From assembly GCA_002989075.1 (NCBI GenBank), contig PSQN01000015.1:930001-994000 (forward strand): a stretch of 64,000 nucleotides of DNA. The letters run 5' to 3'. Under the pieces are notes generated by a model. The model was not told the DNA's origin, searched no databases, and worked only from the letters and a program-made list of their open reading frames with translations. The position numbers and the translations under genes are program-made. How positions within the stretch are numbered: position 1 is the first letter of the stretch; each line of letters begins with the position of its first letter. Of this stretch, positions 4,694 to 63,061 are shown piece by piece. Source of the stretch: Arthonia radiata (taxonomy: Eukaryota > Ascomycota > Arthoniomycetes > Arthoniales > Arthoniaceae).

Positions 4694-5105
4694 TTCATCA
4701 GCTTGCTATAGCTTTGAGAACTTACTCATATGTATCATGTCGAAAGATGGTAATATGCTACGCGTTCTATCGCGCAGCGTAGTTGCTTCTCTCTCCAGGG
4801 GTTTGGCGGTTCAGTTTTTGACCTAAAGGCGCCGCGACACTTCTGCGCAAACAGTTCCGTGTGCGTGTCGGACCTTGGACGCGATGCAGCGCTCGCCCCT
4901 GGCAATGAGTCTCGAAATGCTATTCTTAGGACCACGGAACAGATCATGAGCTCATCACATGGAAAGCTGTGTTGTTCATCCTGCCTCTCAAGCTTGTATT
5001 CGCTTGCTGACCTGCTCTCCACTTCTTAGTTTTAGTCAAGACACGCTGATTGCAAGCTACATAATAGGAATATTACTGGACGTACACCACATATAGGCAG
5101 AAGGT
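4694..5105. other. Region upstream of the F1 array
   Basis: About 400 bp between the POF1-like gene side and the first F1 copy. Any N-terminal exon of F1 copy A would lie here, but none is clear. Nothing else seen. Confidence 0.35.
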
Positions 5106-5700
5106 ATGCGGGGTCACAATTGCTGGCACCGGAATGGAGCGCGCATTTTGTCGCCATTCGTCAGTTTTTCTTGGCATGACACAACCTACAACAAGGAGAT
5201 GAGGCCCAAGATTTTGGCGGAAAACGAGCAAAAGATTCTAGAAGGTCGCAAACGTTTCTTTGACATGTGTGACGAACACGTAAAGCGACACAACGCGCCT
5301 AAACCGTTTCACAAGCTACAAGATGAGGATACATTGGCCTTTGCTGGCACTCTTCACCATTGTTGCAGAGAGGAACTTAAAGAATTCAATGATCCAGCGG
5401 AGATGGAGCGCGTCAAGTAAGATTGTGGCGCCAAGCCGAACGTTTTCACAATTGTGTGCGTATCCGACGTATACACTTTTTGGTTACAAGACATACTGAC
5501 CACACGTTTGTCACAGTGATTACACGTATAGCTTATTTACGGTCATGCTCCACCATGACAGTGATCCGGATGCCACGACCGAATCGAGATGGCCAGAGCA
5601 CCATCACCTGAGCCATGTCCAGCGGGTCCCCGAAAAACATCGCAAAATCAGTTTTCACATGAATGAAGTAGTTATAAGTGGTTCTTATCAGCATGGATAG
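5106..5700 (+). CDS. F1 family protein, copy A (two exons, in-frame stop overlapping a donor site)
   Basis: First member of an unrecognised five-copy family. Exon 1 starts near an ATG at 5106 and carries the family core: GHNCWHRNG, then EGRKRFF, then a Cys/Leu helix (HHCCREELKEF), then GAKPNVFT. Exon 2 starts at 5517 and reads FTVMLHHD, then HVQRVPEKH, to a stop at 5698-5700. By analogy with the other copies the intron is 5456-5516 (phase 2), but exon 1 then has a TAA at 5418-5420. That TAA lies in the string GTAAGA. Using this as a donor (intron 5417-5516, same acceptor, also phase 2) restores an open frame of 164 residues and drops the KPNVFT motif. The copy is therefore either a pseudogene or re-spliced. 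No signal peptide or membrane segment. Confidence 0.55.
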
Positions 5701-6308
5701 ATGTATAGCATCGGAAAAACTTCAATCAGAAGAACCTCGAAGGGAAAAAAGAGCAAAGAATGATTACAACTTTTGAAGCTGCCACCCTCGCGTTCTTTGG
5801 TGACAAAAGTCTTTCATCCGCAGGAACATAACTTCGTGGCGCCATCCATTTGATTATAATCTGTCACCGTCGCATTATCCAGGTAGCAGATTGCAAAGAT
5901 TTGCCCGTAATCGTTCGAAAATTGACCAGCATTTTTTTTTCGCAAGTTGCAGTCGCATTTTCTTTGTGCCAATCGAAAGTTTCTAGTGGTAGCAGAATTT
6001 CCCTACAAGTCTCACAAGTGAGGCGCTTAGTACTGACGGTTGTCACAACGAAGCAAGAAACGTGTTCAGATTGGTCGGGTCGCGAGACAGTCCTAATGCG
6101 GAACACACGTCTTTCGCTACTGACAGGTTGCTTGTACAGCAAGTTGCGGTAGGTATCCACAAATGGTACGAAAGTGTACAAATACCTTCCTCATAACGAA
6201 AGCATCGGCGCGCCGCAGCCGGTCAGTCGTCATATACACAATAAAGCGAACCCCCACGATCGCGATTCGAACATTATAAAATTCAAGGTCTTAACACTCT
6301 CAAGTGTC
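5701..6308. other. Intergenic between F1 copies A and B
   Basis: About 600 bp, richer in A and T than the genes, with no coding pattern found on either strand. It presumably contains the promoter of copy B. A run of eight T near 5932 is the only visible low-complexity tract. Confidence 0.4.
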
Positions 6309-6920
6309 ATGGCTCCAGACTGGTATACAGCGGCAAACAAGAATAACCTATCTGCTGATGAACAAGAGTACAGCGAGCATCCTGGCCATGGCTTCTGGCA
6401 CCATTACGGGAAACATAGGTACTCCAAGTACGATGGTCATGATATCAGACTAGAAGTTCTTGAGGACAGAGTCGATGATATTCGCAAGGGCCGAAATGAG
6501 TACTACGATAGAGAAGAGGCACGAAGCGAGAAGAATTCAGCTGAGTACAAACGCAATGATCGGAATCTTCTATCTTTCGTAGAAGAGCTCTACAACTGGT
6601 GTAAAGTTAATAGAACGGAGTTCAATGGGAAAGATGCACAGGAGATGCGAGGGGTGAGGGATAAATGTCAAGGCAAGACGCCGAACGTGTTTACAGTGAC
6701 GTGAGTAGTCCTCTTTCTGCACACCCAACAAGTCGTTGACCCCTGCAGGCGCTGGACGCCAGACAAGTTTGACGTCATGTTGCATCACGAGATTCATCGA
6801 CCGTCGTTCAATTTGAAAGCGGAAATTGGCATGGACCATGTTCAACTTCACCCGACAGATTTTCCCCATAAAAAACTGATTTCTATTTCCCTTGACGATA
6901 TGTTCCGGCTTAGTCAATAG
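6309..6920 (+). CDS. F1 family protein, copy B (two exons, intact)
   Basis: Best-preserved copy. Exon 1 is 6309-6700, from an ATG reading MAPDWYTAANK. Intron 6701-6748 (48 bp, donor GTGAGT, acceptor CAG, phase 2). Exon 2 is 6749-6920. The spliced product is 187 residues. Landmarks are HPGHGFWHHYGKHR, HDIRLEVLEDR, KGRNEYYDREEA, a helix with LLSFVEELYNWC, MRGVRDKC and TPNVFTVT in exon 1, then FDVMLHHEIHRP and MDHVQL in exon 2. The protein is hydrophilic and charged, with no signal peptide or membrane segment, so a cytosolic or nuclear location is inferred. I recognise no known domain. Shared intron position and motif order with four neighbours are the evidence that it is a real gene. Confidence 0.75.
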
Positions 6921-7438
6921 CATTGTCAGGCCATTTGCAAGCCGACGCTACCACAATGAATGTATTGGCATCTGAACGGTCAATGTCCTCCCCTGATCAT
7001 GCTGGTGTCCACCGCCGACTCAAATCGGACTGAAGCAGGCTGGCCTCCACTCAATGCTGGCAAGCCTAGAAAAAATGAGGGAGTCGTCCAACGTAGCAAT
7101 GGCATCGATTGCTGCAAGATGACTCGAGAAGTCCAGATTGCCAATGCGTGCCTGTCTATTGGGGTGGCCCGCCTCATAAGCCTAAAGCAGAATGCCAGCT
7201 GGTTCTTTGCACTATTCTGGTACTTGTCACGACGATGGGTATTCGTGCTCCACAGTATCCCGGGTCGCTAACATAACCAACTCCAGATTCAACACACCTG
7301 GCAAGTTTCAAAACCTGTCCAGCCACCTGTACGCTCACTGAATGATTCTCATCTTAGAACGGTCTGGAAGCCGTATCAGCTCCTTCAACACTTCAGCCTC
7401 TGCTTCAGGCGACCATATAGTCACCACTCTGCGCCGCC
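6921..7438. other. Intergenic between F1 copies B and C
   Basis: About 520 bp. A plus-strand ORF in 6960-7271 begins with YWHLNGQ, which faintly recalls the W-x3-G motif of the family, but nothing after it matches. I see no supported feature here. Confidence 0.35.
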
Positions 7439-8095
7439 ATGAGCTCTTTATACAGCCGTATCGGTCATGGCATCTGGAACTGGGGAGGTGAACGCCATGT
7501 AACCGGATTCAACACGCCCTTTGGTGATTTCTTCCGACTCGAATGCGCGGAGAAGAATCTCGCGAACCTGGAAATCGGACACAGCGATTACTACACCAAG
7601 AGGAGGAGGATCTGAGCGACCTGGGCTGACCAGAGCGGAAGAACCCTAGGGCCGCAAGTGAAGATGGTCCATCAGCCAGACCTGATGCGCATGGCCCAAG
7701 ACGTGCTCCAGTATTGTGTATCGCACAGCGCTGAGTTTGAAGACAGCGCAACTAGAGAAAAAGTGAAGAAAGATTGCGGAGATAAGAACCCCAACGTATT
7801 CGTGCTGGAGTAGGTTTTCCAGAGTGTGAGCGAGCTTTCACGTGTTCTGAGATACTGACGCACTTGTAACAGGGACTTCGAGAAAGACCAATGGAGCTTC
7901 CAACTCTATCATGACGATCATAGGCATGCTCTGAAGTTTAGCGGCTTCTTTAGCGAAGAAGAGCATGAACTTACTATGGAAAAGCCACGGTATTCCGGGA
8001 AGGTAGCCCAGGAAGAAGTAGTAAACTTTCACGAGCAACACGAGAAGAAGCAGAAGGCGTTGCACAAGGAGAGGGAGAGAGCATTGCGCATGTAG
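7439..8095 (+). pseudogene. F1 family copy C, interrupted by one in-frame TGA
   Basis: Exon 1 runs from an ATG at 7439 (MSSLYSR) through GHGIWNWGGERH, FFRLECAEKN and GHSDYYTKRRR. It then meets a TGA at about 7613, after which the same frame continues with LMRMAQDVLQYC and NPNVFVLE. The conserved phase-2 intron is present (7810-7872, donor GTAGGT, acceptor CAG). Exon 2 is 7873-8095, reading WSFQLYHDDHRH and ending in a Glu/Lys-rich tail absent from the other copies. The region between YY and the LM helix is longer than in copies B and D, so a small insertion may accompany the stop. Re-splicing around the TGA would remove the conserved core, so a pseudogene is the simplest reading. A recently lost gene or a sequencing error cannot be excluded. 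Confidence 0.6.
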
Positions 8096-8603
8096 GCGCA
8101 AGAGTAACAGCTTCAATCAAGCCTGTGAAATGTACGTTGGCTGTCGTTGCTATGTTCATTTATCTGTGCGCTAGTCTTGTTTTGGACCGCAATCCCTCCA
8201 GGTCAGTCTTCTCTCTCTTTCTCAAACAACAGGATCTGAAGTCTGAGACCGTTCGCCGACCCGCGCAATTCCGGGACCAAAAGCGGCCTTGCCGCGCTCA
8301 CCCGCGCAACGATCCCAAAAGCGATCCGTGGTAGTCTGAAACACACTGTTGATCGCTCAACTGCCCGAGAGTGGTGGTTTGACATGGCGGAAATTACTCA
8401 CACCTGTGAGCAATAACAACTGTTCTAAATGCGGACTTGTAAGCATGGCGCTTTCGCCGTTGATAGCACGGCTGAGGACACCTCTCTCTGTAAACATGCC
8501 AGAGCGTGGATCAACCGTTCACGAGCTTTCTATCCGCTATCTGTGTGGAAAAAGCCTCATAAGTGTTTTTACGATCGCTAAACCTCCTACATTGACAACC
8601 TAG
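8096..8603. other. Intergenic between F1 copies C and D; possible 5' exon of copy D
   Basis: Copy D has no ATG in its first recognised exon, so its start codon may lie here. An ATG at about 8444 (MALSPLIARL) followed by a possible GTAAAC donor near 8490 is one candidate. I could not decide. Otherwise no coding signal was seen. Confidence 0.3.
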
Positions 8604-9240
8604 CATACTCTAGATACCACGGCCGCCGCCTCCTCCGAGCCCACAGACCACACCAAACACCCCGGTCACCATTTCTGGCACGTCAACGGTCGTCACAAGA
8701 CCGCTGAGTGGGACCCAGACGTGCGTTTAGAGGTTCTCAAAGGCCGCGAGAACTATGTCCTTGCCGGTCGTGATAAATATTACAGGCAATCCGAAGAAAG
8801 AGGCTTAATTACCCAAGACCAAGCAAGGCAGCTTCGGCAGGAAACCCTCCTCAATTTTGCAAACACACTCTATACGTGCTGTCACTTCTACCGCAAGGAG
8901 ATGGCAAATCCCGAGAACTTCGCGACGGCTCGGGGAGTCCGCGTCAAATGTGGTGGCAAGCCGAATGTGTTTACTGTGACGTGGGTACCACAATCTTTTA
9001 TGAATTCTTTTGGTAATGGGTCTGCATTGGAGGGACTTGAAGCGTTCTAGCGCTGACGAGTCTCGCAGAACCTACATCGGAGGCCACTTCGGCATCATGC
9101 TGCATCGTGAGCCTCGTCGATTGGTGGATGAAATTGGGAAATTCATTGAGCTGGACCATGTTCAGCGTACGCCAGACGATGGCAAGCCGCACTACTACTT
9201 CACTGTACATATCAAAGACTTGGGTTGGGTTGACGCGTGA
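8604..9240 (+). CDS. F1 family protein, copy D (5' end unresolved)
   Basis: The recognised part begins after a CTAG acceptor-like site at 8600-8603 and reads HPGHHFWHVNGRHKT, VRLEVLKGREN, AGRDKYYRQSEER, LLNFANTLYTCC, GVRVKCGGK and PNVFTVT. Intron 8981-9068 (donor GTGGGT, acceptor CAG, phase 2) leads to exon 2 (9069-9240), reading GGHFGIMLHRE, LDHVQRTPDD and a terminal GWVDA. No in-frame ATG exists between the upstream stop and the first conserved residues, so a first exon with the start is probably missing from this model. The joined exons divide by three (183 codons). Exon 2 is 172 nt, the same as in copies B and E. It is convergent with copy E, with 188 bp between stops. Confidence 0.68.
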
Positions 9241-9428
9241 CATCTACGAGCGGCGGATAATAGTGATCTCGGTCGCAGCACAGGAAAGGCATCAGGACAT
9301 ATTCTCTACTTCATTGTCACCAGAGACGTTTCCAAGAACAGCCACGCCCTTCTCCCCGAAGGTCCCAAGACCAGAGGCATTATTAAGACAATCCATCCAC
9401 ATCCTTATCGAACAACCCCACGCCGCTC

Positions 9429-10070
9429 TCACTTCAGATTACGTACATACGCGAGTGAATTCCCCAGGTGGATCTCCGCAGTATACCGCGGCGACTCCTT
9501 CGTAGCATCATGACAACAAAAGCTGAAATACCTATACCAACCCATCGCACGCTCATGGCCATCATGGTAGAGCTCAGAGCTCATAGGTCCATACATTCTC
9601 CTTATAGTTCCTAATCGCCAGTCAGCACCACATCACACTCACCTCCACCACGTCACACCCACCTCCAAAACCCAAAACACTCATCCAACCGAGCGACAAA
9701 CTCACCCCAACACAAAAACATTCAGATCTCTCCTTCCACACTGCTCCCTCACCTCCCTCCTCAACCCTTCCCGCTCCTTTAGGAAACGCATCTGATACCG
9801 CAGTGCGATCTCCGCGAACGCCATCATGTCGGGTTTCTCCTCCTTGACCTTGCCGCCGTCCTTGGCTGTGAGGTAAAACTCCTTGCGGCCGCGGACGCAC
9901 TCGTCGTAGTTGGCTTCGGAGACCTCGAGGCGGATGGAGTGGCCGCGGCCGTAGGGTGTCTCGTAGACGGTGGAGCGGCGCGAATGGCGCCAGTTGTGGA
10001 CGAAGCGGATGGGCCAAGCGAAGCCGGCCATGTCGAAGTGGGGGACGCTTGTTGTGGGGAAGACGTTCAT
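9429..10070 (-). CDS. F1 family protein, copy E (two exons, inverted)
   Basis: Minus-strand member. Exon 1 is 10070-9706 from ATG (MNVFPTTSVP), with HNWRHSRRSTV, HSIRLEVSEAN, VRGRKEFYLTA, a helix ending EIALRYQMRFL, and LNVFVLG. Donor GTGAGT at 9705 and acceptor AAG at 9601-9603 define a 105-bp phase-2 intron. Exon 2 (9600-9429) reads SSELYHDGHERAMGW, then KESPRYTAEIH, and stops. The spliced product is 178 residues. Exon 2 is only found by using the family pattern: it is 172 nt, as in copies B and D, and its LYHD(G/D)H and PRY motifs match copy C. An upstream in-frame extension without ATG exists to about 10150, so a further 5' exon is possible. Function unknown. Confidence 0.7.
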
Positions 10071-11018
10071 TGTGGCGTCGATTGGGTCATGGACGGGTGT
10101 GGTTTTGTCGTTGAGAGGGTTTGGCAAGGTTGGAGAGGAGACGAGGAGGCGGGACCAGGCTGGTTATAGGGACTCAGAGGGCGGGCGCATTGGTGGCTGA
10201 TGTGTGTCGTGTGTGCTCGAGGGCGAAGAGACGCTCAGGGCGCTCATAGCAGCAAATCGTGAGAACGTGTGAGTAGTATATTGGAACTGTACATAGGGAC
10301 GAGACATTTTGGGGCCTCTGGGACAGATACGTACATAGAAAACGTTGAGCGACAACAAGTCGTCATAAGCGTTGGAATAATAGTGAGCACGAGCTTCTCT
10401 GTGTCAGAGATAGGCGCAAAGTATGCACTGTATCTTGCTTGGATTGATCCAGTATATGTTGAGCGGCACGAACGTATGGGAAGAGAAGTATCAAGTTGGG
10501 TAGGTACGCATCTGAAGGAAAAAGCACTCATTGACAACGATGGGACACGGAATAGTCCTTGAACCGGAGTAGACGATATTCCAGACCGCGACGACTACGC
10601 CGGCTTCTGCTAGAATGAGAATGTTCGTCTTCTCATGCAAAGATCGAACGACATCTCTACACATTTGGATAACACTCGGAGTCGTTGAGCTCATTTCGTG
10701 CGTTACCTCTACTGCACAAATCTTGATCATGTTAACATGAATGACAGTGTCGGTGGTATGGAAGCAATGATGGTGAATATGAATGATATACTCACATATG
10801 TAATGGACTTCCCCAGCATCTTGTTTTAGTGGTGCTGCCCACGAATCTCGTCTCAAATGCTGGTATATTTGTAGTGATGGCCCCGCCAGATCTCGTCGTG
10901 GTCTTGGTGCTTATGCAGCGCATCGCCGCAGTATCGATCATGTCATAAGCTGAATCGCCTGCCGTCCCACATGTTTCATAACTCGTCACAATACCCACCC
11001 CTTCACCCAAGTCATGCC
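10071..11018. other. Gene-poor stretch after the F1 array
   Basis: About 950 bp between the start of F1 copy E and the end of the SWIM-RING gene. Open frames of up to ~120 codons occur on both strands but show no domain, no family match and no codon pattern like the neighbours. No supported gene. Confidence 0.4.
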
Positions 11019-12158
11019 TTACCACCTGCCATTTCTGAAGCCAGTGTAGTACATCGCAGTCTCTGGATCTTCGTCCCGCAATCCACCCTCTCGACGCTGC
11101 TTGCTCACCCAGAACTTGTGGTAGGTGCTCGTGTCGCGCAAGCCATTGATGCCCAGCTGTCCGGCCACGTTCATATAGCCCTCTTTAGTAACACCGAGCG
11201 TCTTGTTGACCAATCCCACCTTCTCCGTATCGCTCTCCCACGGCGTGCGACAGAACGGACAGGTGACACCGCCGCCCTGGGCGCGCTTCTGTGCCGCCCA
11301 CTGCTCGAAGCAGTGCTTATGCACGTTGTTGCCGCACGCGGCTTTGCAGTAGAGGATGTCGTCCCCTTCTTCAAACTCGACGCAGCAGATTGGGCAGTCG
11401 TCTTCAACAGGCTTGCGAATACCGTTGTCGTCCTTCTCGGTTTCCCCTTTGTCGGTAGGAATCGGTGGCGCCTTGTCGAGAATTTCTTGGAGCTCCGAGC
11501 TGAGGAAAGCACGCTGATACATGAGGTGCGCGGGCGCTCTGAGAGTCTTAGAGAGCACATAGACTATGTGCTTGCACTCATTGCCTTTATTGGCATATGG
11601 GCAGGTGCAAGAGGGCTTTTTGCCGATAGTGACGGTGTAGAGGTTGCCCGTCGTGCCAGCAATTTCGACAGATTCAATAGGACCATCCGCAGTGTCGGAA
11701 CGGGTGCGCTCAATAACAAACATGCTTGTGCATGTCAGCGGGAGGATGGAGGTGAGGGTCAGTGCGGGTACTCACCGCTGAGTCTGCGCGCGCTCGAGGA
11801 GAACTTTGTGCGACTGGGGGGCTTGCTTGCGGAAGCTGCAAGAACAATATTAGCTAGGTAAGATATAATGGGCAACGATGGGAACTCACCGGCTCAAACG
11901 CTTCTCGCCATCGTCTTTCGCTTTTCCTTTGCCCGTGCTCTTTTTGGTTGTCTTCTTGCTCTTCTTTTTGGGCTCGTCTAGGTCATCCTCGTCCTCGTCA
12001 TCATCTTCGACAACCTTGCGCTTGCGCTTGCGCTGTGATTTGGTGTAGATTGTGGTGTCTTCACTGTCATCGTCGTCCAGGCAAACTGGACGGCGTGGCA
12101 AATTGCCTTCGAGAGGGGACTGATGCGGGTCGACGCTATCTTCCTGTAATGCGCCCAT
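11019..12158 (-). CDS. SWIM-type and RING zinc-finger protein, probable E3 ubiquitin ligase
   Basis: Three exons: 12158-11890, 11835-11776 and 11724-11019. Both introns have GTGAGT donors and the joined CDS is 344 residues. The first ~90 residues are acidic then Lys-rich, with nuclear-localisation-like basic runs (RKRKRK, KKKSKK). A SWIM finger follows at about 149-162 (C-x-C, then C-x-H in CTCPYANKGNECKH). A RING finger at 220-268 (CPICCVEF, then GNNVHKHCFEQW, then CPFC) carries the canonical Cys/His ligands. SWIM plus RING resembles ZSWIM2-type proteins, in which the RING recruits an E2 enzyme and the SWIM finger binds DNA or protein. Ubiquitin ligase activity is inferred from the RING. The start is an ATG with exon 1 fully open. 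Confidence 0.88.
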
Positions 12159-16909: not shown

Positions 16910-17820
16910 TCTGTTGAGCTCCCTCGACGTGCCCTCGACGTGCTCCTCAGAGCGCTTCTCAATCTGCGGTATGCCTCTCGTCATACTGAAATCGATCAAC
17001 ACCCCGGCGTCTTGCAACCTCCATGAGACCGACAGCCTTATGTGGATGCTGCGTTTGCTCTGAGCTTTTGTCTTCCGCACACATGCTCCGCAGAGCGGTC
17101 CTCAATGTCTCGCAATGGCGTTGTGCGGCTCTGGAATAGATCGATACGCCGGCGTCCTGAAACTTCGCTGATGCAGGCAACCTCATCGGGCTGCTGTGCT
17201 CGCTCTGAGCTTTCGTCCTTCTTGAAATTGCTCATAAGAGCCGTGGCCGTCTTCGCGATCTGTCCCTTTGCGGCTTGAAATATGGTCAATTCGGCGGCGT
17301 CTCGGCACATTGCGAGGTAAGCGAGGTGATATCGATGCTGCTCTGGGCTCTTGTCCTGCTTAGACTGTGTCCTTTCGAGCGTGCATCAAATCTGCCTACT
17401 GTTCGTTGAGGTCGTGATTGCAATCGGAGTGCCGGCGCGTTCGAAAATGGCGGGATGGGTTAGCTTGACCTGGCATTGTTGTTGCTGCGAGTCATGTCTG
17501 CTCTGAGTGATTGTCCTTTCAAGACTGTGCTCTTCTGAGCGTTCATCGGCTTTTTGAACTGCATGCTCGAGGCGCTGGCCGGGCTCCAATCCGCGGCGCG
17601 TTCGAAAATGGCGGGATCGGTAAGCATAACCTGGACTTGCGTTTGCTGCGAGTTGTGTCTGCTCTGAGCTATTGTCCTTAATAGATTCTGCTCTTTTGAG
17701 CGTTCATCGGCTTTTCGAAATGCACGCTCAAAGCTCTGGCCGCAATCCAATCCGCGGCGCGAGCTGGATCGGAGAGACGGGCGACCTCCGCCTGCTCCTC
17801 TGCGCGCTCTGAGGTCTTCT
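16910..17820. repeat. Degenerate tandem repeat array, about 138-161 bp period
   Basis: The motif CTCTGAG/CTCTGGG recurs at 17058, 17203, 17341, 17501, 17662 and 17807, spaced 145, 138, 160, 161 and 145 bp. A related block (CTCCKCAGAGCG) recurs at about 16943 and 17085. The best two units begin at 17435 and 17596, exactly 161 bp apart, and share GCGCGTTCGAAAATGGCGGG and the CGTTCATCGGCTTTT segment. A third partial unit starts at 17757. Because 161 is not a multiple of three, successive units are read in different frames. On the minus strand they give related peptides (DERSEEHSLER, DERSKEQNLLR, SERAEEQ). The array lies just past the stop of the gene at 17822-19132 and looks like a decayed former coding repeat or a minisatellite. 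Confidence 0.75.
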
Positions 17821-20298: not shown

Positions 20299-22500
20299 TT
20301 ATAGCACATAACCTGCAACGCCAGATCTGCCGCCATGTGCATTCGTACTTGCAGCTTTGCCCTCAACGTCTTGCAACTCACCTTTCTTACCGATGACCTT
20401 GACATTACCTTGCTTAAGTGTCTTCACAACCTCCTCACGGTCCTCTCGTTTCTTTGCTTTTCCTTGCTTAGCTTCCGGCGCCTGTTGATTCGAGCTTTGA
20501 CGGGAATCGGCATTGCCACCGGCTTTATGAGCCTTCTCCTTATTGCGTCGTCTCCGTCGCTTCTTGCTTTCTCTCGTTTCTTCCTCCTTAGAAACAGCCG
20601 TTCCTCCTTTCGTCCTGACCTCACCCAAAACCTTCCCATCCTGACCGGGCTTATAAACTTCTTGGGGTGCGAGACCGCTGGCGTTGCCACTGGTTTCTGC
20701 AGCTGGTCGAGCTTCTTCTATTTGAACAACAGGAGCATGTGTACGCACTTCGAGATTCTTTTCCGGGGGCCGAGGCTTGTAGTGCCAGTTGCATAGAGCA
20801 TCAAGCTGTCCCCTGAGCTCGGTCCACTGCTTTTCGATCTCTGCATGCTTCTTTTTTGTCACCTCGCTACGCTGGTCGACATAATTTGGGTCGGTCTTTC
20901 GAAGGTAGTCATCTTCATACTCCTCTGCGAGTCCATGCTGAGGCTTGGTGTCGCTCAACTCTTCCCTCCGCCCATGCGCATCGAGAATGCCGCGTCGAAC
21001 GGACCCATTCAAGTTATCAAGCTCAGGTCGACGCCGTGGCACCTCATCAAACTCGCTGTTCAGGATACGTCTTTTGATGAGTTCCTCGATGGATTCATTG
21101 ACTTCCTGAGTGATGACCGGCAATGGCTTCCCAGCTCTTTCGAATTCAAGGTCTTCTTCAAGCAGCGCGTTCTCCGGTCGAGCTGGGGCTACAGTCTCAC
21201 CAGTCAAAGCCCAGGGTTTGCTTGCCACGTTCTCCCTCTCCAAGCGAGCGATCTCCTTCCGAAACTCTGCCATACGCCGCTCATGTGTTGACAGGTTCTG
21301 GTTGCTTTGCGCTGCCTCATTCTCCTCGTCTTGCTCCAGGTCTTCGTCGTCTTTTTCATCGTCAACCAGATCTCTTCGCACGGACGACATCGCGCGGTCC
21401 ATCTCAGCATCGCCTTCGTCTTCCATTGCGTCATACTCAGTGGCTATTTCCGAAATGCTGCCTTTTGGATTTGGATTTGTCTCTCTCCTGTGGCGTTCCC
21501 GCAGTGGGTGTTGTCGAGGTTGCCTTGACTTCGATCCTGCAGGAGGTGCAAAGAAGTCGTTGTACATGATCTCGTTGGTATTACTAAAATCTCCCATCGG
21601 TTCAGACTCTATGCCTTCGTCCATCTCTTCATCATCCGTATCTGGTGCATCAAGATCCACGTCGCCAAAGGTCGGCCCGTCTCCGTCTTCATCTTCGTCA
21701 TTTTGGCCGCTTGCGCGATCCGAAGTTTCCACCTTGCCCATGCCTATGCTCACACCTTCTGCAAGCGGGTCCGCATCCCAATCAATATCTTCCTCATCGC
21801 TCGCTGCACCGTCGTCATGGTCGCCTCTTGCGTCCACGTTCTCAAGGAACTGAGTATTCTTGTTAAAATGATCGATAGAGAAGAAGCCATCATTGAGGCC
21901 ATGTCGATCCTTCACAAGCTCTTCTGTAGGCTGTTCATCCTCAGACACATCACTTGCAGGAGTGTCTTCCCCAAGGTCTGGCGACCCTTCGTCACTGGCG
22001 CTGTCCACCTTCTCTCCTACCTCGCCGTCCAGCTCATCTCCTGACTCCACATCATCACCGTCATATTGCCAGTCGACGCCTTCTTCTCCAAGGGAATCAC
22101 TGTCAGCACCATCTTCAAATCGCACTTCTTTCCTACGCTTGGGATCCGGCTCGACTTCCAAAGCATCTGTATGAATCTTTTGATTCGGGACTTCTTTCAC
22201 CACCTCGCGCAAGGTCGCATCGAGCACCCGTTTGCTCTGCTGCCAGACTTGCTCAACGTCGAATCCATCTGTGTACAGCTGCTGCATTCGAAGCAGCTCC
22301 AGTGGTTCTTCATGGTCGTCTCGTTTGCGCTTTTTGCTTTGTCGCTCCAACTTTAGACGCCCGATTTGAGACGCACTCACATCTGACGCAAGAGGGTCGA
22401 AGAATCGTTTGCCAAGGTTCAATACAGTAGTGTTTAGCTCAATCGTGGGCTGCAGAAAGGCCTGCTGTCGGGAGGTGAGGTCTTGTATGATTGTTGTCAT
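20299..22500 (-). CDS. MPP10: U3 snoRNP protein MPP10
   Basis: Single-exon gene; 733 residues from ATG at 22500 (MTTIIQDLTSRQQ). The frame stays open upstream only because a 56-bp duplication happens to lack stops, so the longer start is not credible. MPP10 forms a subcomplex with IMP3 and IMP4 in the small-subunit processome, needed for early 18S rRNA cleavages in the nucleolus. Family signs are long acidic stretches, DEEDIDWDADPLAEG, the YNDFFAPP motif, and the conserved block KPWALTGE, RPENALLEEDLEF, PVITQEVNESIEELIKRRI (roughly residues 445-500). A basic Lys/Arg-rich C-terminal tail follows. Length is in the fungal range. It is divergent with the DUF1279 gene across a 375-bp promoter that contains the duplication. 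Confidence 0.95.
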   Translation of the reverse strand: MTTIIQDLTSRQQAFLQPTIELNTTVLNLGKRFFDPLASDVSASQIGRLKLERQSKKRKRDDHEEPLELLRMQQLYTDGFDVEQVWQQSKRVLDATLREVVKEVPNQKIHTDALEVEPDPKRRKEVRFEDGADSDSLGEEGVDWQYDGDDVESGDELDGEVGEKVDSASDEGSPDLGEDTPASDVSEDEQPTEELVKDRHGLNDGFFSIDHFNKNTQFLENVDARGDHDDGAASDEEDIDWDADPLAEGVSIGMGKVETSDRASGQNDEDEDGDGPTFGDVDLDAPDTDDEEMDEGIESEPMGDFSNTNEIMYNDFFAPPAGSKSRQPRQHPLRERHRRETNPNPKGSISEIATEYDAMEDEGDAEMDRAMSSVRRDLVDDEKDDEDLEQDEENEAAQSNQNLSTHERRMAEFRKEIARLERENVASKPWALTGETVAPARPENALLEEDLEFERAGKPLPVITQEVNESIEELIKRRILNSEFDEVPRRRPELDNLNGSVRRGILDAHGRREELSDTKPQHGLAEEYEDDYLRKTDPNYVDQRSEVTKKKHAEIEKQWTELRGQLDALCNWHYKPRPPEKNLEVRTHAPVVQIEEARPAAETSGNASGLAPQEVYKPGQDGKVLGEVRTKGGTAVSKEEETRESKKRRRRRNKEKAHKAGGNADSRQSSNQQAPEAKQGKAKKREDREEVVKTLKQGNVKVIGKKGELQDVEGKAASTNAHGGRSGVAGYVL

Positions 22501-22607
22501 GGTCGTAGATTTGTGTTGACAATCGCATTGGACTTTCAACGATAAACTGTTGTCATGGTCGTAGATTTGTGTTGACAATCGCATTGGACTTTCAACGATA
22601 AACTGTT
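22492..22607. repeat. Perfect 56-bp tandem duplication over the MPP10 start codon
   Basis: Positions 22492-22547 and 22548-22603 are identical base for base, and four further bases match. Copy 1 contains the MPP10 ATG (22498-22500, minus strand). Copy 2 carries a duplicate ATG 56 nt upstream, which opens a six-codon uORF (MTTVYR, then TGA) in another frame. The perfect identity suggests a recent event or an assembly artefact. Confidence 0.95.
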
Positions 22608-54692: not shown

Positions 54693-56435
54693 CTAAAGGA
54701 CAAAAGCCAGACACCCCACAGCACCGGCCACAGCCATCCCACCCCACCTCAACACCTCCACCTCCACCCTCCCCGCCCCACCACTCGCCGGCGCCGCCTT
54801 CCCCACCGTCCCCGGCCCCTGCCCCGCCGTCGCACTACACTGCGCAGGCCCGCACCCGTACCCAGAGGGACAACACCCGCCCCCCTGGTCCGCGCCACAC
54901 ATGTAAAACCCCTGCGCGCATTGCCCCATCCCCTGGCCACCGCTGCTCGAAGCACTGGGCGCAGTGACAGTCGCGCTAGGATTACTCTGACTCGCCGGCT
55001 GGTTCGGCTGATTGAGCGTTGTCGGAGCGCCCGCCCCTGGCACGAGGATAGTCGCGCCGTTGGAGATGAGAGTGGCAGTAGTAGACGCAGGACAAGACGT
55101 GCTATCGCAATCCCGCCCCACTTGACAGCACCCGCCGATGTAGGTGGCGGAGCACATGTAGTAGCCTGTTGGGCAAAAGCCCATGCTTGTCGTTGTTGTC
55201 AGGGTGCCTTCGCTGCTGACGGATTGGGCGGAGACGTCTGAGGTCGGTCGCACTGGAGGCGCGGCGGCTGCGGAGGATGCCGGAGATGTGGAGAGGGCAG
55301 GGCAGACGCCGCCGGTGCCGCATGCACGGTCTGTTGGGCAGCAGCCCCCGCCGAGGGAGGCGGCGCAGGTGTTGAAGCCGGGGGAGCAGGTTAGGGCGCC
55401 TTGGGTGGGCGTGGAGGCGGGGATGGGGGCGGCTGTGACGATGACCGCGCCGCCTGATGAGTCGGAAGAAGAAGAGGAGGTGAGGGTTGTGTAGACGGTT
55501 GTGGTGCTGCGTTGTGGCGGTGGCGGTGCAGCCAGGATTGTAGAGGTGGTGGTGATGAGTTGGGTTGAGCTGGGCGGAGGGGGAGGCGGCGGCGGCGCGG
55601 TGGAGTTGTTAGGCGAGACCGTGCCTGTGACGGTTACGACGTTCAGCTGCGTCGTCGTGGAGCTGCCGCCGCCGGCTACGCAACCGACGCCACTACATGT
55701 GAAGCCGGGGATGCAACAACCGCCGTTGGGTGAGCCAGGACAGGATGAATACCCCATGCTGGTGTCGCACTGGCCTACGGAGCCTGAGCAGGTTTGGCCA
55801 GCGGGACAGCAGCCGACGTCGCCGATGCCGGTGTCGGAGATGAGGGTGCATGTTTCGGAGGTGCCGCAGCAGGAGTTGGGGCGCCCGATGGAGGCGCAGG
55901 AGGTGGTCTGGGTGGGGCAGGTGAAGTCGCGTTTGAAGAGGTGGAGGGGGTTGCGGGGGAGGAGATGGTTTGGTGGAGATGGGTTGGTGTCGTCGTGGAG
56001 GAGGAGCGGGGGGAGGTATGGTGTGGTGAGGGTGGTGCCGTTTGTGTTCTCTGATTCGGAGAGGAGGGAGAGGCGCCGGCGGTCGAGTGGGGTGGTTTGC
56101 TCGGTGTTTGGGGTGGTGTCGTCGGGTGTTGAGGTGGTGTTCGTGAGCTCGGAGGTTTGCGAGGAGTGGGCGTCTGCTTCGAATTGCCAGTAGTCGAGGA
56201 AGAACATCTCGCCGGGGTCATCGCTCATCTTGCGCACGCCCACGGGCTTTTGCGTCGCGAACTGCGCGCGGACTTGCAGGTCGCGTTTGACGAGGGGTTC
56301 GTGCTCGGGCCAATACTTCTGGTGTGCGGGGAGGTTGTATGGCCATTGTGGAGGCTGTTGTTGCTCTTGCGCGAGAGCGCTGGTGATGAGGAGGATGAGG
56401 TGGGGTGGGAGTGCGAGGAGGGTAGCGGGGTGCAT
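54693..56435 (-). CDS. GPI-anchored cysteine-rich cell-surface protein with five CC modules
   Basis: Single exon, 580 residues. Signal peptide LALPPHLILLITSALA at the N-terminus. After a ~170-residue region with KR sites (LVKRD, LFKRD) come five Cys-rich modules of the pattern C-x6-C...GGCC(P/I)xGxxC...C; examples are NGGCCIPGFTC, GGGCCPTDRAC, IGGCCQVGRDC and GGGCCPSGYGC. Ser/Thr/Pro-rich linkers separate them, including a run of eight Pro. The C-terminus has a hydrophobic tail (GMAVAGAVGCLAFVL) after a small-residue stretch, fitting a GPI anchor. Such proteins are frequent in Dothideomycetes cell walls; their role (adhesion, chitin binding or wall structure) is not established. The KR sites suggest Kex2 processing. 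Several out-of-frame shadows overlap it. Confidence 0.85.
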   Translation of the reverse strand: MHPATLLALPPHLILLITSALAQEQQQPPQWPYNLPAHQKYWPEHEPLVKRDLQVRAQFATQKPVGVRKMSDDPGEMFFLDYWQFEADAHSSQTSELTNTTSTPDDTTPNTEQTTPLDRRRLSLLSESENTNGTTLTTPYLPPLLLHDDTNPSPPNHLLPRNPLHLFKRDFTCPTQTTSCASIGRPNSCCGTSETCTLISDTGIGDVGCCPAGQTCSGSVGQCDTSMGYSSCPGSPNGGCCIPGFTCSGVGCVAGGGSSTTTQLNVVTVTGTVSPNNSTAPPPPPPPPSSTQLITTTSTILAAPPPPQRSTTTVYTTLTSSSSSDSSGGAVIVTAAPIPASTPTQGALTCSPGFNTCAASLGGGCCPTDRACGTGGVCPALSTSPASSAAAAPPVRPTSDVSAQSVSSEGTLTTTTSMGFCPTGYYMCSATYIGGCCQVGRDCDSTSCPASTTATLISNGATILVPGAGAPTTLNQPNQPASQSNPSATVTAPSASSSGGQGMGQCAQGFYMCGADQGGGCCPSGYGCGPAQCSATAGQGPGTVGKAAPASGGAGRVEVEVLRWGGMAVAGAVGCLAFVL

Positions 56436-56977: not shown

Positions 56978-58114
56978 ATGAGGGATAGTGTTCGAAAGCC
57001 AGGTCTTTTTCTATGTTTGCATACGAATTCGTGTCTTTTCACATCCCGGCGAATTGTACCCACCATCCTGAAGCTGGCCTTAAAGTATAGTCCTCGCCTT
57101 CAGTCGAAGGATGTGTTCAGACTCAAACGATGTATCTACGATGAGACGCAGAAACTTCAGATGCCAACGTTTCTGGATTCGCTCGAGCGAACGTCCCCTG
57201 TGAACTCGGCTTCTGATACTGCTGAGCTACATGCTCAACGCTATTTCAAAATCCTGGAGAATGCACGTGCCAGCCAGACCCGGGGGGGCAGACTGGTCCC
57301 CACAAATGAAGAGTTTCTGGACGACGTTTTCGAATTCATCCATGGCGAATACACGACTCATCCAGTGTTCCCGAGTATAAATACAGACCTCATCAGGCTG
57401 TTCGCCTCGCTCAAAAATTACAAAGAGGGGCGCCAACTGCGAGAGTCGGAGTGGCCTTGGCAAGATATCATTGTGTGCCTTCAAGCTCTTCCGTTCCTCG
57501 GCTCGTCAGAGGAACCAGGTCTCGACTCACCTCGTCAGTATCACCTCGACTCATTGAAATTGCTGGAAAAGGCGGGCATCACATTCGACCCGACCATTTT
57601 GAGCTCATTGCATGCTCCACAGGCACAGCATGATCAAGGCATCTACGACATTGATTGTATCGGACTGGCACTGGGACAAGTCCCTAATACTACAGCCTTG
57701 AACGACTTCCGCGCTGACCCTTCAGATGTGTTGAAGACTGTGCTAGACTCTCGTAAAAAGCGTGGGGCAAGAGTTTGCAAAATTGAGGATTACGAGAAGC
57801 TTTCAGTGGGTTGTGATGTTACATCAGGCTACCATGCCACCGCATGCGGATGGCACTACTGCAACTGGTTCATAAACTACGAGCGGCTGCGAGCGGCTCA
57901 GAACGCTGCAAGTCTGCAAATGCAAAGGGACCGCATTGGCACGATAGTTGAAAGCCTTTTGGATCTGGAATCGTGGACCCCGGATCCACTTCCATCGCCA
58001 GCAGAAATCCTGCGGAGATACAAGGTCGTTGCAAGCAACAGCAAAAACCCGAATCCCGTCATGTCGAAGTTTATCGAAGAGACGTTGAGAAGCCAAATCC
58101 GGCGGAGGAACTAG
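56978..58114 (+). CDS. F2 family protein, copy 1 (intact)
   Basis: Single-exon gene of 378 residues from ATG at 56978, the only undamaged member of a four-copy family with no domain I recognise. The N-terminus is KPGLFLCLHTNSCLF then RRIVPTILKLALKY, helical and basic. A second block DVFRLKRCIYDE lies at 45-56. The core WPWQDIIVCLQALPFLG is at 159-175. GITFDPTIL and YDIDCIGLAL follow, then FRADPSDVLKTVLDSRKKRG at 244-263. SGYHATACGWHY is at 283-294 and ESWTPDPLPSPAEILRRY at 331-348. No signal peptide. The first 35 residues are hydrophobic enough that a membrane-associated or buried helix is possible. Function unknown; shared blocks with three neighbours show that it is a real coding gene. Confidence 0.78.
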   Translation: MRDSVRKPGLFLCLHTNSCLFTSRRIVPTILKLALKYSPRLQSKDVFRLKRCIYDETQKLQMPTFLDSLERTSPVNSASDTAELHAQRYFKILENARASQTRGGRLVPTNEEFLDDVFEFIHGEYTTHPVFPSINTDLIRLFASLKNYKEGRQLRESEWPWQDIIVCLQALPFLGSSEEPGLDSPRQYHLDSLKLLEKAGITFDPTILSSLHAPQAQHDQGIYDIDCIGLALGQVPNTTALNDFRADPSDVLKTVLDSRKKRGARVCKIEDYEKLSVGCDVTSGYHATACGWHYCNWFINYERLRAAQNAASLQMQRDRIGTIVESLLDLESWTPDPLPSPAEILRRYKVVASNSKNPNPVMSKFIEETLRSQIRRRN

Positions 58115-58928
58115 TCGTTGTGCTTCGTCTCTATAGGCTGAAGCACAGTGTATCACGACTGCTGTGAGTGGGCCTGTCGCGCCTTGTGCTCAGTAATTGA
58201 CAGCGGCTCCGAGTCGGACCCTTGAGTAGAGCCAGAGTGAGGTGGTTATCCGTTGTCAACAGAGAGCACCTACGTACGCTCTGAGCATGAAAGCAACTGT
58301 CATTGGACTATGGTGCATATGTGGCTTACGAACGTGGAACAGACACTCTTCCACGCTTCGATGCTGAGGTTGAGCCTTTCGTTCGCTAGTATTGTTATGG
58401 ACTAAATTGGCTTGTGGCGTAGATTATGCCAGCATACTCCTGACTAAGATTGTCGACGTGACACAGCCACACGGGCTGGGTCTTGTTTAATAGAGGCTAT
58501 TACAGCGTGCCTGACTCTTTCAATGGACTATCCCAGAATGTACTATTATTCATGCTCAATCCGGAGTGGTCGCGGGTGTTATGAGGCGGGTGGAAGACTA
58601 AGTGACCGGGCGGTGTCGACCTGCTCAACAACCCGTCTGACGGACACTGACATGAAGAAGTATAGTTCGTCGCTAAATCAGGCTACTGACCATTTTCTCA
58701 CATTACTAGGCTCGCTTGCAGCACGTGAGAGGAGTACATTCCACCGCTTGTGAGGTCAGTTCGCCGGGTCATGACATGCATGTTGCTGTTACACAACGCG
58801 CTTCGTGAGTGTGCAACGTCTTTTCTGCGCGGTCTCCCCAACGCAGAAGAAGCGTATTTCAGCAGCAAAGGGCCGAGATGTGTACAAAGGGCCATCAATT
58901 CCTTCGCTAATCGGTTTAGCAGTCCAAC
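58115..58928. other. Intergenic between F2 copies 1 and 2
   Basis: About 810 bp, no gene supported. Its length is close to the gap between copies 3 and 4 (836 bp), but I could not see clear sequence identity by eye. Confidence 0.35.
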
Positions 58929-60022
58929 ATGATAAAAAAGCCGGGCCTTTTCCTCCTTCTAGACGAGGGCATCTTGCTGAAGCGCACTCTTTTGAGGCGT
59001 CGGGTCTCTGAGCTCATTGTCAAATACAGCCACGCCTGTCAGACTCAGGGGTTCTCAAACAACAAATCAAAGATGTTCTTCATATGGCACGACGTCAATT
59101 AAATAGCGAGTTCAGGCACGCGCGCAAACAGTCCAAAAACTTTGAGCCGCTGCAAGACAGCAACACGGATGAAAAAATTTCTTACGGTAAATAGGAGCTC
59201 AGATCTATGATCGGATTGGCGAACCGAAGAGGCATCCTGGCCGGTAAATTTCCTGTGACGAGCAGCATTTTCTGGAATGAACTCGATCAAATGGTGCACG
59301 AAGAATATCGTCGCACGTCACATGAAGGTGTTCAACAATTATCTGCGGATGCTGTCGAACTCTTTACGTCCATTCGACGGTGGAAGACGGGTGTCACTAC
59401 GGATTCAAACGCTTGGCCGTGGCAAGACGTCGTAGTCGCCTATTACTGGCGAGGCGCTCCCCTAGCTTTGAGAGTCAAACAGGACAAGCTGAAAGCCAGG
59501 GGCTTAGAGGTTGATACATACCCCTGTCCGAGACCGCAATCCTCAATGGAGACGCTCCAGGTGGTCGATGTGGATGTTCTTCTTCCAGATGCAGATTCTT
59601 GGCTCAAGGAACGTCCTATGCAATCGCTCTTCGACAATCCTAGGCAGCTGCTCAGTTCAGTCCTCACTTCACGCCGACACTGCGCTCCAACACAAGCTCC
59701 GAAGTTCGACTATGACGATTACAACCTGCTATCCGTGAATGAAGTCTTGACCCATGGTTATGCCGCAGTGGCAAGTGGTTGGCACTATGTTCATGTTCAC
59801 TCGACCCCTCTAGCTTATCAGGCCGATCCTAGAGCAAGCTATTTCCGGGAGCACGCGATCGGACAGCAGATCAACAGTTTACAGGAGTTACAATACTGGG
59901 CGCCGGAGCCCTTACCGTCTCCACATGATCTGGGCCGGATTTTTGCGTCGATGCGCAGTGGGAAGCCGATGAGTGATACTCAAAAGTGGATTCCCAAGAA
60001 GATAGACTCTCAATTGGGATAA
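58929..60022 (+). pseudogene. F2 family copy 2, frameshifted with an in-frame stop
   Basis: Starts with MIKKPGLFLLLDEG at 58929, matching the family N-terminus. Near 59045 the family frame changes: the block expected next (IKDVLHMARRQLNSEF) is in another frame, so a frameshift lies there. In that second frame a TAG occurs at 59192, after which coding resumes (RSMIGLANRRGILAGK) and stays open to 60022. The later part keeps AWPWQDVVVAYYW, DVDVLLPD, HGYAAVASGWHY and YWAPEPLPSPHDLGRIF. If the long 3' frame is translated alone from ATG 59207 it gives 271 residues lacking the N-terminal block. Two lesions make a pseudogene likely. It faces copy 3 with 54 bp between stops. Confidence 0.68.
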
Positions 60023-60076
60023 GCACACTGACTTGGTTGTCACTAGTTGCTCAGATTTGAACCTTGACTCGCTACG

Positions 60077-61162
60077 TTAATGGACCTGTCGCAGCCGCTC
60101 CTTGATCCCACATTCTATGAGAACCTGACCCACGTTCGGAGTCACCCTGTGCTTGGCGGTGTATCCTAGCCAAGATCGCCAGAGCCTTTGAGAATGTGGA
60201 ATAGGCTTCGGCTGCCACGTTTCGAGGTCTGTCAAAGACCACAAGACCGAGCCAATATAATGCTTGTGACCTCGCTGCACTGCCTCCGCCCGCTTTCTAC
60301 TTCCGTGCAGCTAGCACGCGTGATGCCATCCGTTTAACGCCGCCTGATACGAATCTGAGATGGTAGACGATACATCAATCACATCGTAGTCATCCAGACT
60401 CTGACAATTCGGATGGCCAAGGCCCGTTGCCCGGCGCAAGGAGATGAGAGTATTGAGAGTGTCATGCGGTTTGTTTCTGAAGTCTTCAATCTCCATTGTT
60501 GAGGCAGTGATGGACGGATACATAAAATCCACATCGTGATGTCCTTTTGCGCTGCTAGATTCCAGACTCAGTAAGCTTGCGTCGAAGCGCAGACCGTTAT
60601 CAGACAAGAAGCTCAAACGACTTTTTCTGCGCTCCGCATCGCTCGAGCTGCTCAAACCAGGGAAAATCGACATTGTGAGGATGACGTCGTCGAAAGGTCG
60701 CTGCATAATCTGACCTTTTCCTGACTTTGCCTGGCGCACTAGATCAAAGAGTGCTTTGGCTTCTTCATTCAGCCCTAACTTCTCCGGGAGATTTTCACGT
60801 TTAGCCCGGATCATCTGTCTCAGATCATCCCAGAAAGGATTTTCACTACTTATGGAAAGGAGCGTTTCGGCTGGACCTGGGTCGTGAGATGCGTTTGAAA
60901 TAATATTCTCCCATCGCTGGACCTGCCAATCTATCGCGTACTGGAGACTCTTTTTGGGGCGGACCGGTTCGTCTCTAATCGCTGCTCTCACCCGTCTGTA
61001 CTCATACAAAGCCTTCCGCACGTGTCTGTTCTCGCAGTCGTTGAGTCTACCCTGATGCTTTGAAACCAGTCGCGTGATAGCCTTCACCCATTGGTGTTGC
61101 CTCAAGAAGCATCTTGACGTATCAAACAGTAAGAGTAGACCTGGCCGGCGGGTTTGAGCCAT
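60077..61162 (-). pseudogene. F2 family copy 3, one premature TAG near the C-terminus
   Basis: Minus strand, from ATG at 61162 (MAQTRRPGLLLLFDTSRCFL). Open for 283 codons through KHQGRLNDCENRHVRKALYE, QRPFDDVILTMSIFPG, HHDVDFMYPSITAS, DFRNKPHDTLNTLISLRR and DSYQAALNGWHHAC. It is stopped by TAG at 60311-60313. The same frame continues beyond for 78 codons with LWSLTDLETWQPKPIPHSQRLW, which matches the family C-terminus (LLDLESWTPDPLPSP), to a natural stop at 60077. No intron can be fitted over the TAG. A truncated 283-residue protein could still be made. The core has FDD where the others have WQD or WQR, a change in the most conserved motif. Confidence 0.68.
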
Positions 61163-61998
61163 GAGTGTACAGTGTCATCTCTGGCATTAATACGCAGACT
61201 TCGCAATAATGTCAAGATGCGGGGATGGAAGACGCAAGGATTGGCGTCTTGTGTAACACGAACGGTGCGAACATGCATCTGATGATCATAATGTACCTTT
61301 GGTAATCAATTAGCAGCCTCGTATCATTTGAGCATATAAACGGAAGCCAGCCAGCGCGGCCTGATAATACAGCACGAACACGATCTCTTGGCAAAATCGC
61401 CACCCCCTTTTCTCGCCCCGTCCGACCTCTGACTCAATTTCTCTCTCTCTTTTTCAACCGCACGTCCAAGCAATCGCCTTCCCACTTGTAGTTCGAGACA
61501 TGACTTAATTTACGGTGTCAGCAGCAGAAAGCGAGTCTCGCGTCGTCTTCCCACTGCCACATTGACTGATAAGGACAATGAAGACTTGGCTTGCTGCGCT
61601 GCGTCGGATGCGCAGTGAGAAATAGTACTCTGCTCTCATCGGCATCCGCAATTCGAGCCATCGCATCGATGCAAGTGGACAGACCAGCTTCTCTTACTCG
61701 GAGGGGGGCTCCGAAGGATGCTGTAGCGGCTGCTTGTCGAAGGCGGAGGCGTCTGGCTACTTGAGGAGACGTCTTGCTGTTTCAGAAGCCCTATGCAATA
61801 TGTTCTCGTGCGCCAATCTGCCCAAGAGCGCTAGGCCATTGCCGGAGGATATGAGCATCTGCAGTCAAGCTCTATCTGGGTGCGATACCATGCAATCCGT
61901 GACGATAGACGATAGTGTCGCCGCAAGAACCTTGTAAGTTTGAGAGACAGAAGCTGATATGGTATAGAGGTTGCAGTCCTCTCAAGAGGTCACCGACG
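61163..61998. other. Intergenic between F2 copies 3 and 4
   Basis: About 840 bp with a CT-rich stretch near 61430-61460 that may belong to the copy 3 promoter. No gene seen. Confidence 0.35.
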
Positions 61999-63061
61999 CT
62001 ACGATGTTGTTTCGAGGAGTCGCTTGATGCCATGTTCGACTTTATCCTGCTGCTCACTCAGAGGCATAGTCCAGGCGGCAGCGTAACCACGCCATGCCTC
62101 GAATAGCTCCCGTGGCGGCAATGGATCAGTGGGCTGAATATCTTTCAACTCGCTCAGTGAGTGGATAAGAGAACCGGCATATCGCTGTGGCTTTCTCGTA
62201 AATGCTTGTGCACGTACGGTGGGGACAGTAGAGCACATGATTCCACCCGTGAAGTGCCGACTGGAAAGAATTCAAAACGTTGTCAGAAACCGCGATCACG
62301 TCGAAATCCTCGACGTTGTTACGCGAAGATTCAGGACGAGCTGAACTTGTGCGATTCGCCATCATCTTGTCAACGATATCGTTGGGGTGATCCCAAAATC
62401 TTGCAATGTCTTGCGGTCCACCCGTTAGCGATGGGTAAATGCAATCTACATCGACAACGCTCCCAGGACTGTTCGTGTTCTCATTGAGTATATCGATATC
62501 AAAATGCAGTCCATTTTGACTCAATAGATGCAGGCGACCTTGTTTCAGACTATCTTTATCGCAATGCGTCGGTGCTGGAAATGCCTGTGTAGCAACAATA
62601 ATTCTTTGCCATGGCCATTCATGGGACTGTTGCTCCTGTGATTTGGCGAGCCTCAAGGAGTTGAATAAACGCTTGGCGTCTGGTGTAAGGTTGTGGTTCA
62701 AAGGGTTCCGTAAATACTCATCACGTATCATGCAATGGACTTCTGTATGAAATTGCTCGCCACAGGCCCGAAACATTGCACCTACCTTGTCACTCTGTTG
62801 CGACACGCTAGACATTGTTCTCGACCACTGCTCGCACTTGCGCGCCGCTACATCGGCTGCTGCACCAGAGATGAAATTCGTGGCTGCTGCGTTTTTCTGT
62901 TCATAGAGGATTCTTTTGACATGTACGGCGTCTTTAAGTGTCATTTTGTTATTGTGTTTACCAACAAGATTGACGAGGCGCGGCACGATCTTGCGGGCGC
63001 TCAGAAGGCAGGCCTTTGTATCCAGTAACAGGAGCAGTCCTGGGCGACGAGGCCTTGACAT
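61999..63061 (-). pseudogene. F2 family copy 4, frameshift in the C-terminal region
   Basis: From ATG at 63061 (MSRPRRPGLLLLLDTKACLL) the frame is open to 62126, with ARKIVPRLVNLVGKHNN, LKDAVHVKRILYEQ, HEWPWQRIIVATQAFP, GLHFDIDIL, VVDVDCIYPSLTGG and SFQSALHGWNHVL. Just after the GWNH motif (about 62210-62235) the family pattern moves to another frame, which reads RYAGSLIHSLSELKDIQPTDPLPPRELFEAWRGY down to 61999. The unshifted frame instead ends in an unrelated tail. A frameshift therefore cuts this copy at nearly the same place where copy 3 has its TAG. The first ~280 residues remain intact and could still function. N-terminal identity to copy 3 (RRPGLLLL-DT) makes these two the closest pair. 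Confidence 0.68.

Follow-up and report, generated by a model that had tools for sequence, protein, structure and literature searches.

The described systems closest to the gene family considered here are a branch of the HAD superfamily, a HAD subfamily devoid of catalysis and the orphan paralogues of Neurospora crassa. The DREG-2/HDHD3 branch (HAD IA, C1 cap; TIGR02252, PDB 3k1z, yeast YMR130W) shows a distant likeness to it. In C1-capped HAD proteins, motif I, a DT on strand 1, comes first and motif IV, of the VGDxxxxD type, lies near the end. The PA2803/PcrP subfamily of Pseudomonas, which is bacterial, has a truncated cap and is classified as HAD, is described as lacking the catalytic residues, having no activity and binding partner proteins (PMC12132448); we liken it to our family as a precedent for catalytic-residue loss combined with protein binding, not by sequence. 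In N. crassa, according to a survey that covers that species, 11% of the orphan genes have paralogues that are orphans too, and 33% of these pairs lie in tandem (PMC2684829). These paralogues share with our family that they are unannotated and arranged in tandem; they are also lineage-restricted, as our family may be. Here we describe four paralogous coding regions of one family at 56978-63061 in a stretch of 64,000 nucleotides from Arthonia radiata (contig PSQN01000015.1, positions 930,001 to 994,000 of the forward strand), the whole of which is called the window below. The family is absent from the catalogues that were searched, and the array is real, old and mostly broken.

Layout and membership of the array

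Copies 1 and 2 lie on the forward strand and copies 3 and 4 on the reverse strand. Their open reading frames (ORFs) and conserved pieces are as follows:

56978..58114, + strand: copy 1, uninterrupted, single exon, 378 codons plus stop; 43.2 kDa, isoelectric point 8.3
58929..59102, + strand: N-terminal piece of copy 2, 57 amino acids with the conserved KKPGLFLLLD, in another frame than the main body
59207..60022, + strand: main ORF of copy 2, 271 amino acids, comprising the body and the conserved C-terminal tail
60311..61162, - strand: main ORF of copy 3, 283 amino acids, with an in-frame stop immediately behind GWHHAC
60077..60310, - strand: tail of copy 3, conserved and in frame past the stop
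62126..63061, - strand: main ORF of copy 4, 311 amino acids, of which the final 25-30 or so are in the wrong frame
61999..62229, - strand: tail of copy 4, conserved, in another frame

The family is well delimited, and copy 1 is its full-length representative with clear motifs. All six pairs of main bodies were matched by blastp among the ORFs of the window (E about 2e-38 to 5e-6), the strongest pair being copies 3 and 4 (E 2e-38 to 3e-37, 30% over 288 amino acids) and the weakest copies 2 and 3 (E 5e-7 to 5e-6). This weakest real pair scored 40.4 bits, as against a top score of 26.2 bits for shuffled copies (n=500), and the four homologous coding regions that a preliminary description had placed here are thereby borne out. 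Pairwise identity among the four is 23-32% in all comparisons and 24-32% over shared codons. The N-terminal piece of copy 2 came out weakly in a family profile search of the window ORFs (E 0.014), and the tail of copy 3 matches the tails of copy 4 (37%, E 2e-7) and copy 1 (E 1e-5). No fifth copy was found in the window when a profile of the four was run against its ORFs of at least 25 amino acids, the best unrelated one having an E value of 0.5.

Most of the sequence blocks that the preliminary description had listed as common to the family occur in all four copies, namely (R/K)(R/K)PGL(L/F)L (if the detached N-terminal part of copy 2 is counted), (W/R)P(W/F)(Q/D)(D/R)(I/V)(I/V), D(I/V)D and GW(H/N)(Y/H), whereas DFR-x2-P-x-D, listed likewise, is exact in copies 1 and 3 only. 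Behind GW(H/N)(Y/H) follows a conserved C-terminal tail of about 70 residues that had not been mentioned, with a PLP.P-type block and a similar final stretch across the copies; it extends copies 3 and 4 to about 60077 and 61999, respectively.

Age, selection and interruption of the copies

Synonymous differences between the copies are saturated (proportion of synonymous differences, pS, 0.81-0.88). Third codon positions are identical at a frequency of 0.25-0.27, which is the chance level, compared with 0.38-0.58 at positions 1 and 2, and identity at shared fourfold sites (43/176 over six overlapping pairs) is likewise close to chance. The saturation of silent sites together with the conservation of positions 1 and 2 indicates that selection kept the proteins for a long time, as had been claimed of an old and strongly diverged family; unconstrained evolution since duplication is excluded. 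Because the synonymous sites are saturated, the ratio of nonsynonymous to synonymous divergence (dN/dS) between copies yields no number. Simulation of an unconstrained copy 1 at 0.25 substitutions per site gave a mean of 8.8 stops, and none of 300 runs ended with one stop or fewer; since about nine stops are expected over the length of copy 1 without constraint, the breaks described below must be late. The proportion of guanine and cytosine at third positions is 0.50-0.55 in the main bodies, compared with 0.48-0.77 in ten domain-bearing genes of the window.

The preliminary description spoke of four single-exon genes, and in this it has to be corrected: copy 1 alone is one open frame, and copies 2, 3 and 4 are interrupted as sequenced. 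In copy 2 the N-terminal block lies in a different frame and an extra stop stands upstream of the main ORF; copy 3 is broken by the stop after GWHHAC, and in copy 4 the frame is lost a little past GWNH. GT-AG introns were sought between the conserved blocks that flank each break. None of them removes the stop in copy 3, whose interruption in the present sequence is sure. For copy 4 the only candidates are two short introns (46 or 52 nt) with GTGCTC donors, and the RA-x-A stretch that this copy shares with copies 1 and 3 would, in our reading, come to lie inside them. Copy 2 has nine candidate introns of up to 200 nt, those listed all having non-consensus donors; copies 2 and 4 are very likely interrupted as sequenced. 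Introns were accordingly rejected as the source of the breaks, as none fits copy 3 and copies 2 and 4 would need unusual donors. Assembly error is a possible source. Repeat-induced point mutation (RIP) is unsupported as a cause, since the copies resemble the rest of the window (TpA/ApT 0.51-0.59 and (CpA+TpG)/(ApC+GpT) 1.29-1.34 in the copies; 0.63 and 1.25 in the window). The spacer that separates copy 1 from copy 2 (58115-58928) differs, with a TpA/ApT of 1.0, which is above that of both the copies and the window, and a (CpA+TpG)/(ApC+GpT) of 1.08.

At present the locus is better described as an array in decay than as four functioning genes. It is probably under birth-and-death evolution, in which the divergence of the copies under selection would be ancient and the breaks in three of them of later date. 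Copies 3 and 4 are broken (at about 60310 and 62230, - strand) within the same linker, just past the GW block, and the tails behind these breaks are conserved; this may reflect coincidence, shared tolerance or recoding.

Possible descent from the HAD superfamily

No domain had been recognised in the family, and at the curated cut-offs of Pfam, NCBIfam and PHROGs this is borne out, as nothing was found at that level; comparison of profiles with profiles does, on the other hand, give a plausible but unproven link to HAD. Sequences of the PDB gave no significant match, one search returning none and the other eight (best E 0.14, to unrelated molecules). No relative was found in viral contigs searched with the four-row family profile (A1) and with copies 1, 2 and 4, nor in genome contigs searched with copy 1, and a literature search turned up no paper on such a family, by which the absence of one is not shown. 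The 19-residue mean hydropathy is at most 1.25 in all seven pieces, so that there is no hydrophobic stretch of transmembrane length, and from this we infer an intracellular protein. In our reading the hydrophobic N-terminal run is unlike a secretion signal, being short and set between charges, with a conserved D/H-T or D-E behind it. The family is probably non-catalytic and intracellular.

It is tentatively proposed, with a confidence somewhat short of even, that the family derives from the HAD superfamily (C1 cap) and that its active-site motifs have been eroded. On this view strand 1 with motif I would be the N-terminal GLLLLLDT block, the helical first half would form a C1-type cap, strand 2 would probably be WPWQDII and strand 3 D(V/I)D, and motif IV would lie in V....GW(H/N). 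The proposal builds chiefly on the comparison by hhalign of A1 with a HAD-IA template of 58 sequences (57 bacterial ORFs and the HDHD3 stretch of PDB 3k1z). Two colinear local alignments were obtained, covering copy 1 residues 11-185 and 273-339, in which motif I, and motif IV with the tail, are each matched to their counterparts in the template. The top HAD-IA score was reached by none of 60 column shuffles of A1, and templates of SDR, isochorismatase and His-phosphatase gave A1 a z of at most 0.81. In the assembly of the template sets, 3/33 loci of the first HAD set were dropped as exceeding 300 amino acids, and the selection rule left 2/29 DREG-like, 1/30 isochorismatase, 1/30 SDR and 2/30 His-phosphatase loci without an ORF. 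The chain of both alignments scored 45.4, a value reached by none of 200 block shuffles (maximum 41.0; the top score was reached by one), none of 171 unrelated bacterial ORFs (maximum 36.8) and none of 100 four-sequence decoy profiles (maximum 36.7).

The order of the motifs was further compared over 60 random HAD templates, which overlap and hence are not 60 independent tests. The top two alignments of A1 were in register at motif IV with 41 templates, at motif I with 16 and at both with nine; block-shuffled queries, under a looser rule, gave 25, 11 and 0, respectively, of 480. Motif I followed by motif IV was placed in order with 9/60 templates for A1, in none of 600 runs with decoy profiles and in one of 513 runs with unrelated single sequences. 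A second family profile (A2), compared with 27 DREG-like sequences, had motif I placed, with a score that none of 60 shuffles reached. The AlphaFold2 model of the copy 4 core, of low confidence (predicted local distance difference test, pLDDT, 48), has a strand at 9-13, five helices to 140, a strand at 154-158, a helix, a strand at 206-208 and then helices, which may correspond to the element order of a C1-capped HAD protein. The likeness to the DREG-2/HDHD3 branch lies in the order of the hydrophobic strand with DT near the N-terminus, the helical region, the V....GW near the C-terminus and the short tail, and in the putative register of motifs I and IV in the profile comparison; the family differs in giving no match at the level of hidden Markov models and, in the register used, in having replaced the Thr of motif I, the Asp in copy 1 and the second acid of motif IV. 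Copy 1 also exceeds YjjG (225 residues) and L091 (233-236) by about 140-150 residues in length.

Several results weigh against HAD descent. All printed hhalign probabilities are below 5%, and no HAD family was reported from Pfam or NCBIfam at E values up to 10, a range in which the filters of HMMER drop most weak matches. A HAD profile run with HMMER did not separate the family from other ORFs of the window (best rank 9, E 10), and single copies were indistinct from unrelated ORFs in the HAD comparison. The outcome varied with the template: for the first HAD template, of 31 sequences, the local score was reached by 5/200 shuffles and the global one by 73/200; small DREG-2 templates gave just 11.5-15.6; the full set with one yeast sequence added gave 18.6, at motif IV only; and the HAD_2 set alone gave nothing. 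Even the top score was reached by 12/100 decoy profiles and, over the random templates, by 55/480 block shuffles, while A2 showed the ordered placement of motifs I and IV with only 1/60 templates. Motif IV by itself was readily matched by decoys (isochorismatase in 108/150 runs, His-phosphatase in 62, SDR in 28 and PIN in 26) and by unrelated single sequences (104/513), and that of the family also aligns, more weakly, to HAD motif I. In the middle of the protein the registers conflict, HAD strand 2 being matched to residues 149-162 by hhalign and to WPWQDII by MAFFT and the model. Both structure models are poor, that of copy 1 (pLDDT 43) consisting of helices only with no strand, and Foldseek listed no HAD protein among the best 50 of 69 matches. 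The N-terminus also resembles motifs of PIN and AAA-ATPase_like proteins.

Because the middle register is unsettled and decoys match motif IV so easily, our confidence in HAD descent was lowered and that in an unrelated fold raised. According to this alternative, which we regard as quite possible though on the doubtful side, the family would be a mostly helical one of the fungal orphan type, and the HAD signal would reflect the matching of hydrophobic-strand patterns. Such a view would agree with the absence of a curated match, with the all-helical model of copy 1, with hhalign probabilities that are low and vary with the template, and with the tandem orphan families known in fungi (PMC2684829); against it stands the ordered placement of motifs I and IV, which beats both shuffles and real-protein decoys.

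The remaining alternatives are considerably less probable. That the RRPGLLLLLDT of the N-terminus is the dead P-loop of a degenerate AAA-ATPase_like protein (PF09820) is improbable. Copy 4 does show below-threshold similarity to this family (E 0.002, 18.4 bits for the whole and E 3e-4, 20.9 bits for its N-terminal piece; cut-off 26.1 bits), and a 22-column alignment to RPRRFGKSLLIDTLKCLF, obtained with a template of four sequences only, scores 25.3, which none of 100 decoy profiles and one of 171 unrelated ORFs reached; yet the Pfam match, itself short of the curated cut-off, is confined to one of the four copies, GK[ST] is absent from all seven pieces, and the block stands at the extreme N-terminus, where in our reading there is no room for a strand before the P-loop. 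Past the 22 columns nothing strong follows (the next aligned segment scores just 11.9), and the top score is reached by 5/200 block shuffles, the chain by 8/200 of them and by 2/171 unrelated ORFs. Homology to PF09820 over the whole protein was rejected on the grounds of the missing GK[ST], the mere 22 columns and the five block shuffles. The PF09820 signal of the N-terminal piece of copy 4 (62620-63061, - strand) stems from the likeness of RPRRPGLLLLLDT and RPRRFGKSLLIDT. Still less probable is kinship with PIN-like nucleases, for which the resemblance of GLLLLLDT to the first PIN motif would speak (z of 5.5 and 4.7 with the templates over profile columns 7-20, reached by 0/60 shuffles); only 14 columns are involved, however, with a weak following segment, no Pfam PIN match was obtained at E values up to 10, and the putative catalytic Asp is His in intact copy 1. 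It is equally improbable that the copies are relics of a transposable-element protein family instead of host genes. Their number, their two orientations and the interruption of three of them would suit such an origin, but repeats between parts of the region measure just 18-28 nt, with no long flanking repeats, the four copies have no Pfam domain at cut-off, and ten ORFs between or beside them, a part of those present there, gave no Pfam match at E values up to 0.1; the long-lasting constraint also argues against it.

If the family does descend from HAD proteins, the state of its catalytic positions can be read from the alignment. The nucleophile position of motif I is Asp in copies 2 (N-terminal piece), 3 and 4 and His in intact copy 1, and the Thr position is Cys, Leu, Cys and Cys in copies 1-4, so that the Thr is lost in all four. 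With WPWQDII taken as strand 2, a register that is disputed, copies 3 and 4 would have a Thr for the Ser/Thr that motif II places at the end of this strand, and copies 1 and 2 would have none. The Lys/Arg of motif III would correspond to DFR in copies 1 and 3, copies 2 and 4 lacking K/R at that column; this register, too, is uncertain. In the register used for motif IV, the first acid is C, E, S and D and the second G, G, S and S in copies 1-4; an Asp lies one column off near the first place in copy 1 and near the second in copy 3. We have not filed the family as a HAD member because the tested catalytic features do not hold, and the claim is one of descent and likeness. If the register is right, the HAD catalytic residues are lost and hydrolysis of phosphate esters is therefore not expected. 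Taking HAD origin one step further, the family may have lost catalysis and taken up a role in binding a partner or ligand, which we consider possible, but short of probable. More speculative, and unlikely on present evidence, is the idea of an unnamed fungal array of non-catalytic HAD-derived (or new-fold) proteins that diverge fast since variety is useful, as in recognition or conflict, with copies being continually lost; bolder still, the tails of copies 3 and 4 would be made by readthrough or frameshifting. A HAD-derived family would add a fungal case to the HAD groups without catalysis, and, were its domain a worn HAD domain, it would show how part of the dark matter of fungal families consists of ancient enzyme folds that searches with single sequences fail to reach. 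Should it not be HAD, it would still be a clean family for structural work, unnamed paralogue families being common in fungal genomes.

Surroundings of the array

Genes for Dre2, Mpp10, an AFG1-like protein and a mitochondrial carrier are among the contents of the window, which fit a filamentous fungus and, as we read them, an ascomycete. The left neighbour of the array (54693-56435, - strand) encodes a cysteine-rich, secreted-looking protein that matches no Pfam family. A second array of short paralogues, to which the four-copy family showed no relation, is found at 5097-10163, with ORFs at 5097-5417, 6153-6701 and 8604-9047 on the + strand and 9705-10163 on the - strand, plus pieces; its best pair is 42% identical, and an NVF(T/V) block stands near the C-terminus in three of the four when aligned. 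A 161-bp tandem duplication (83% matching) lies at 17433-17761, and a perfect 56-bp repeat of 2.1 copies (22492-22607) falls within the 5' end of the listed Mpp10 ORF. At 11019-11723 (- strand) a small protein that combines a SWIM with a RING finger, each scoring above the Pfam cut-off, is encoded opposite an ORF of 296 amino acids.

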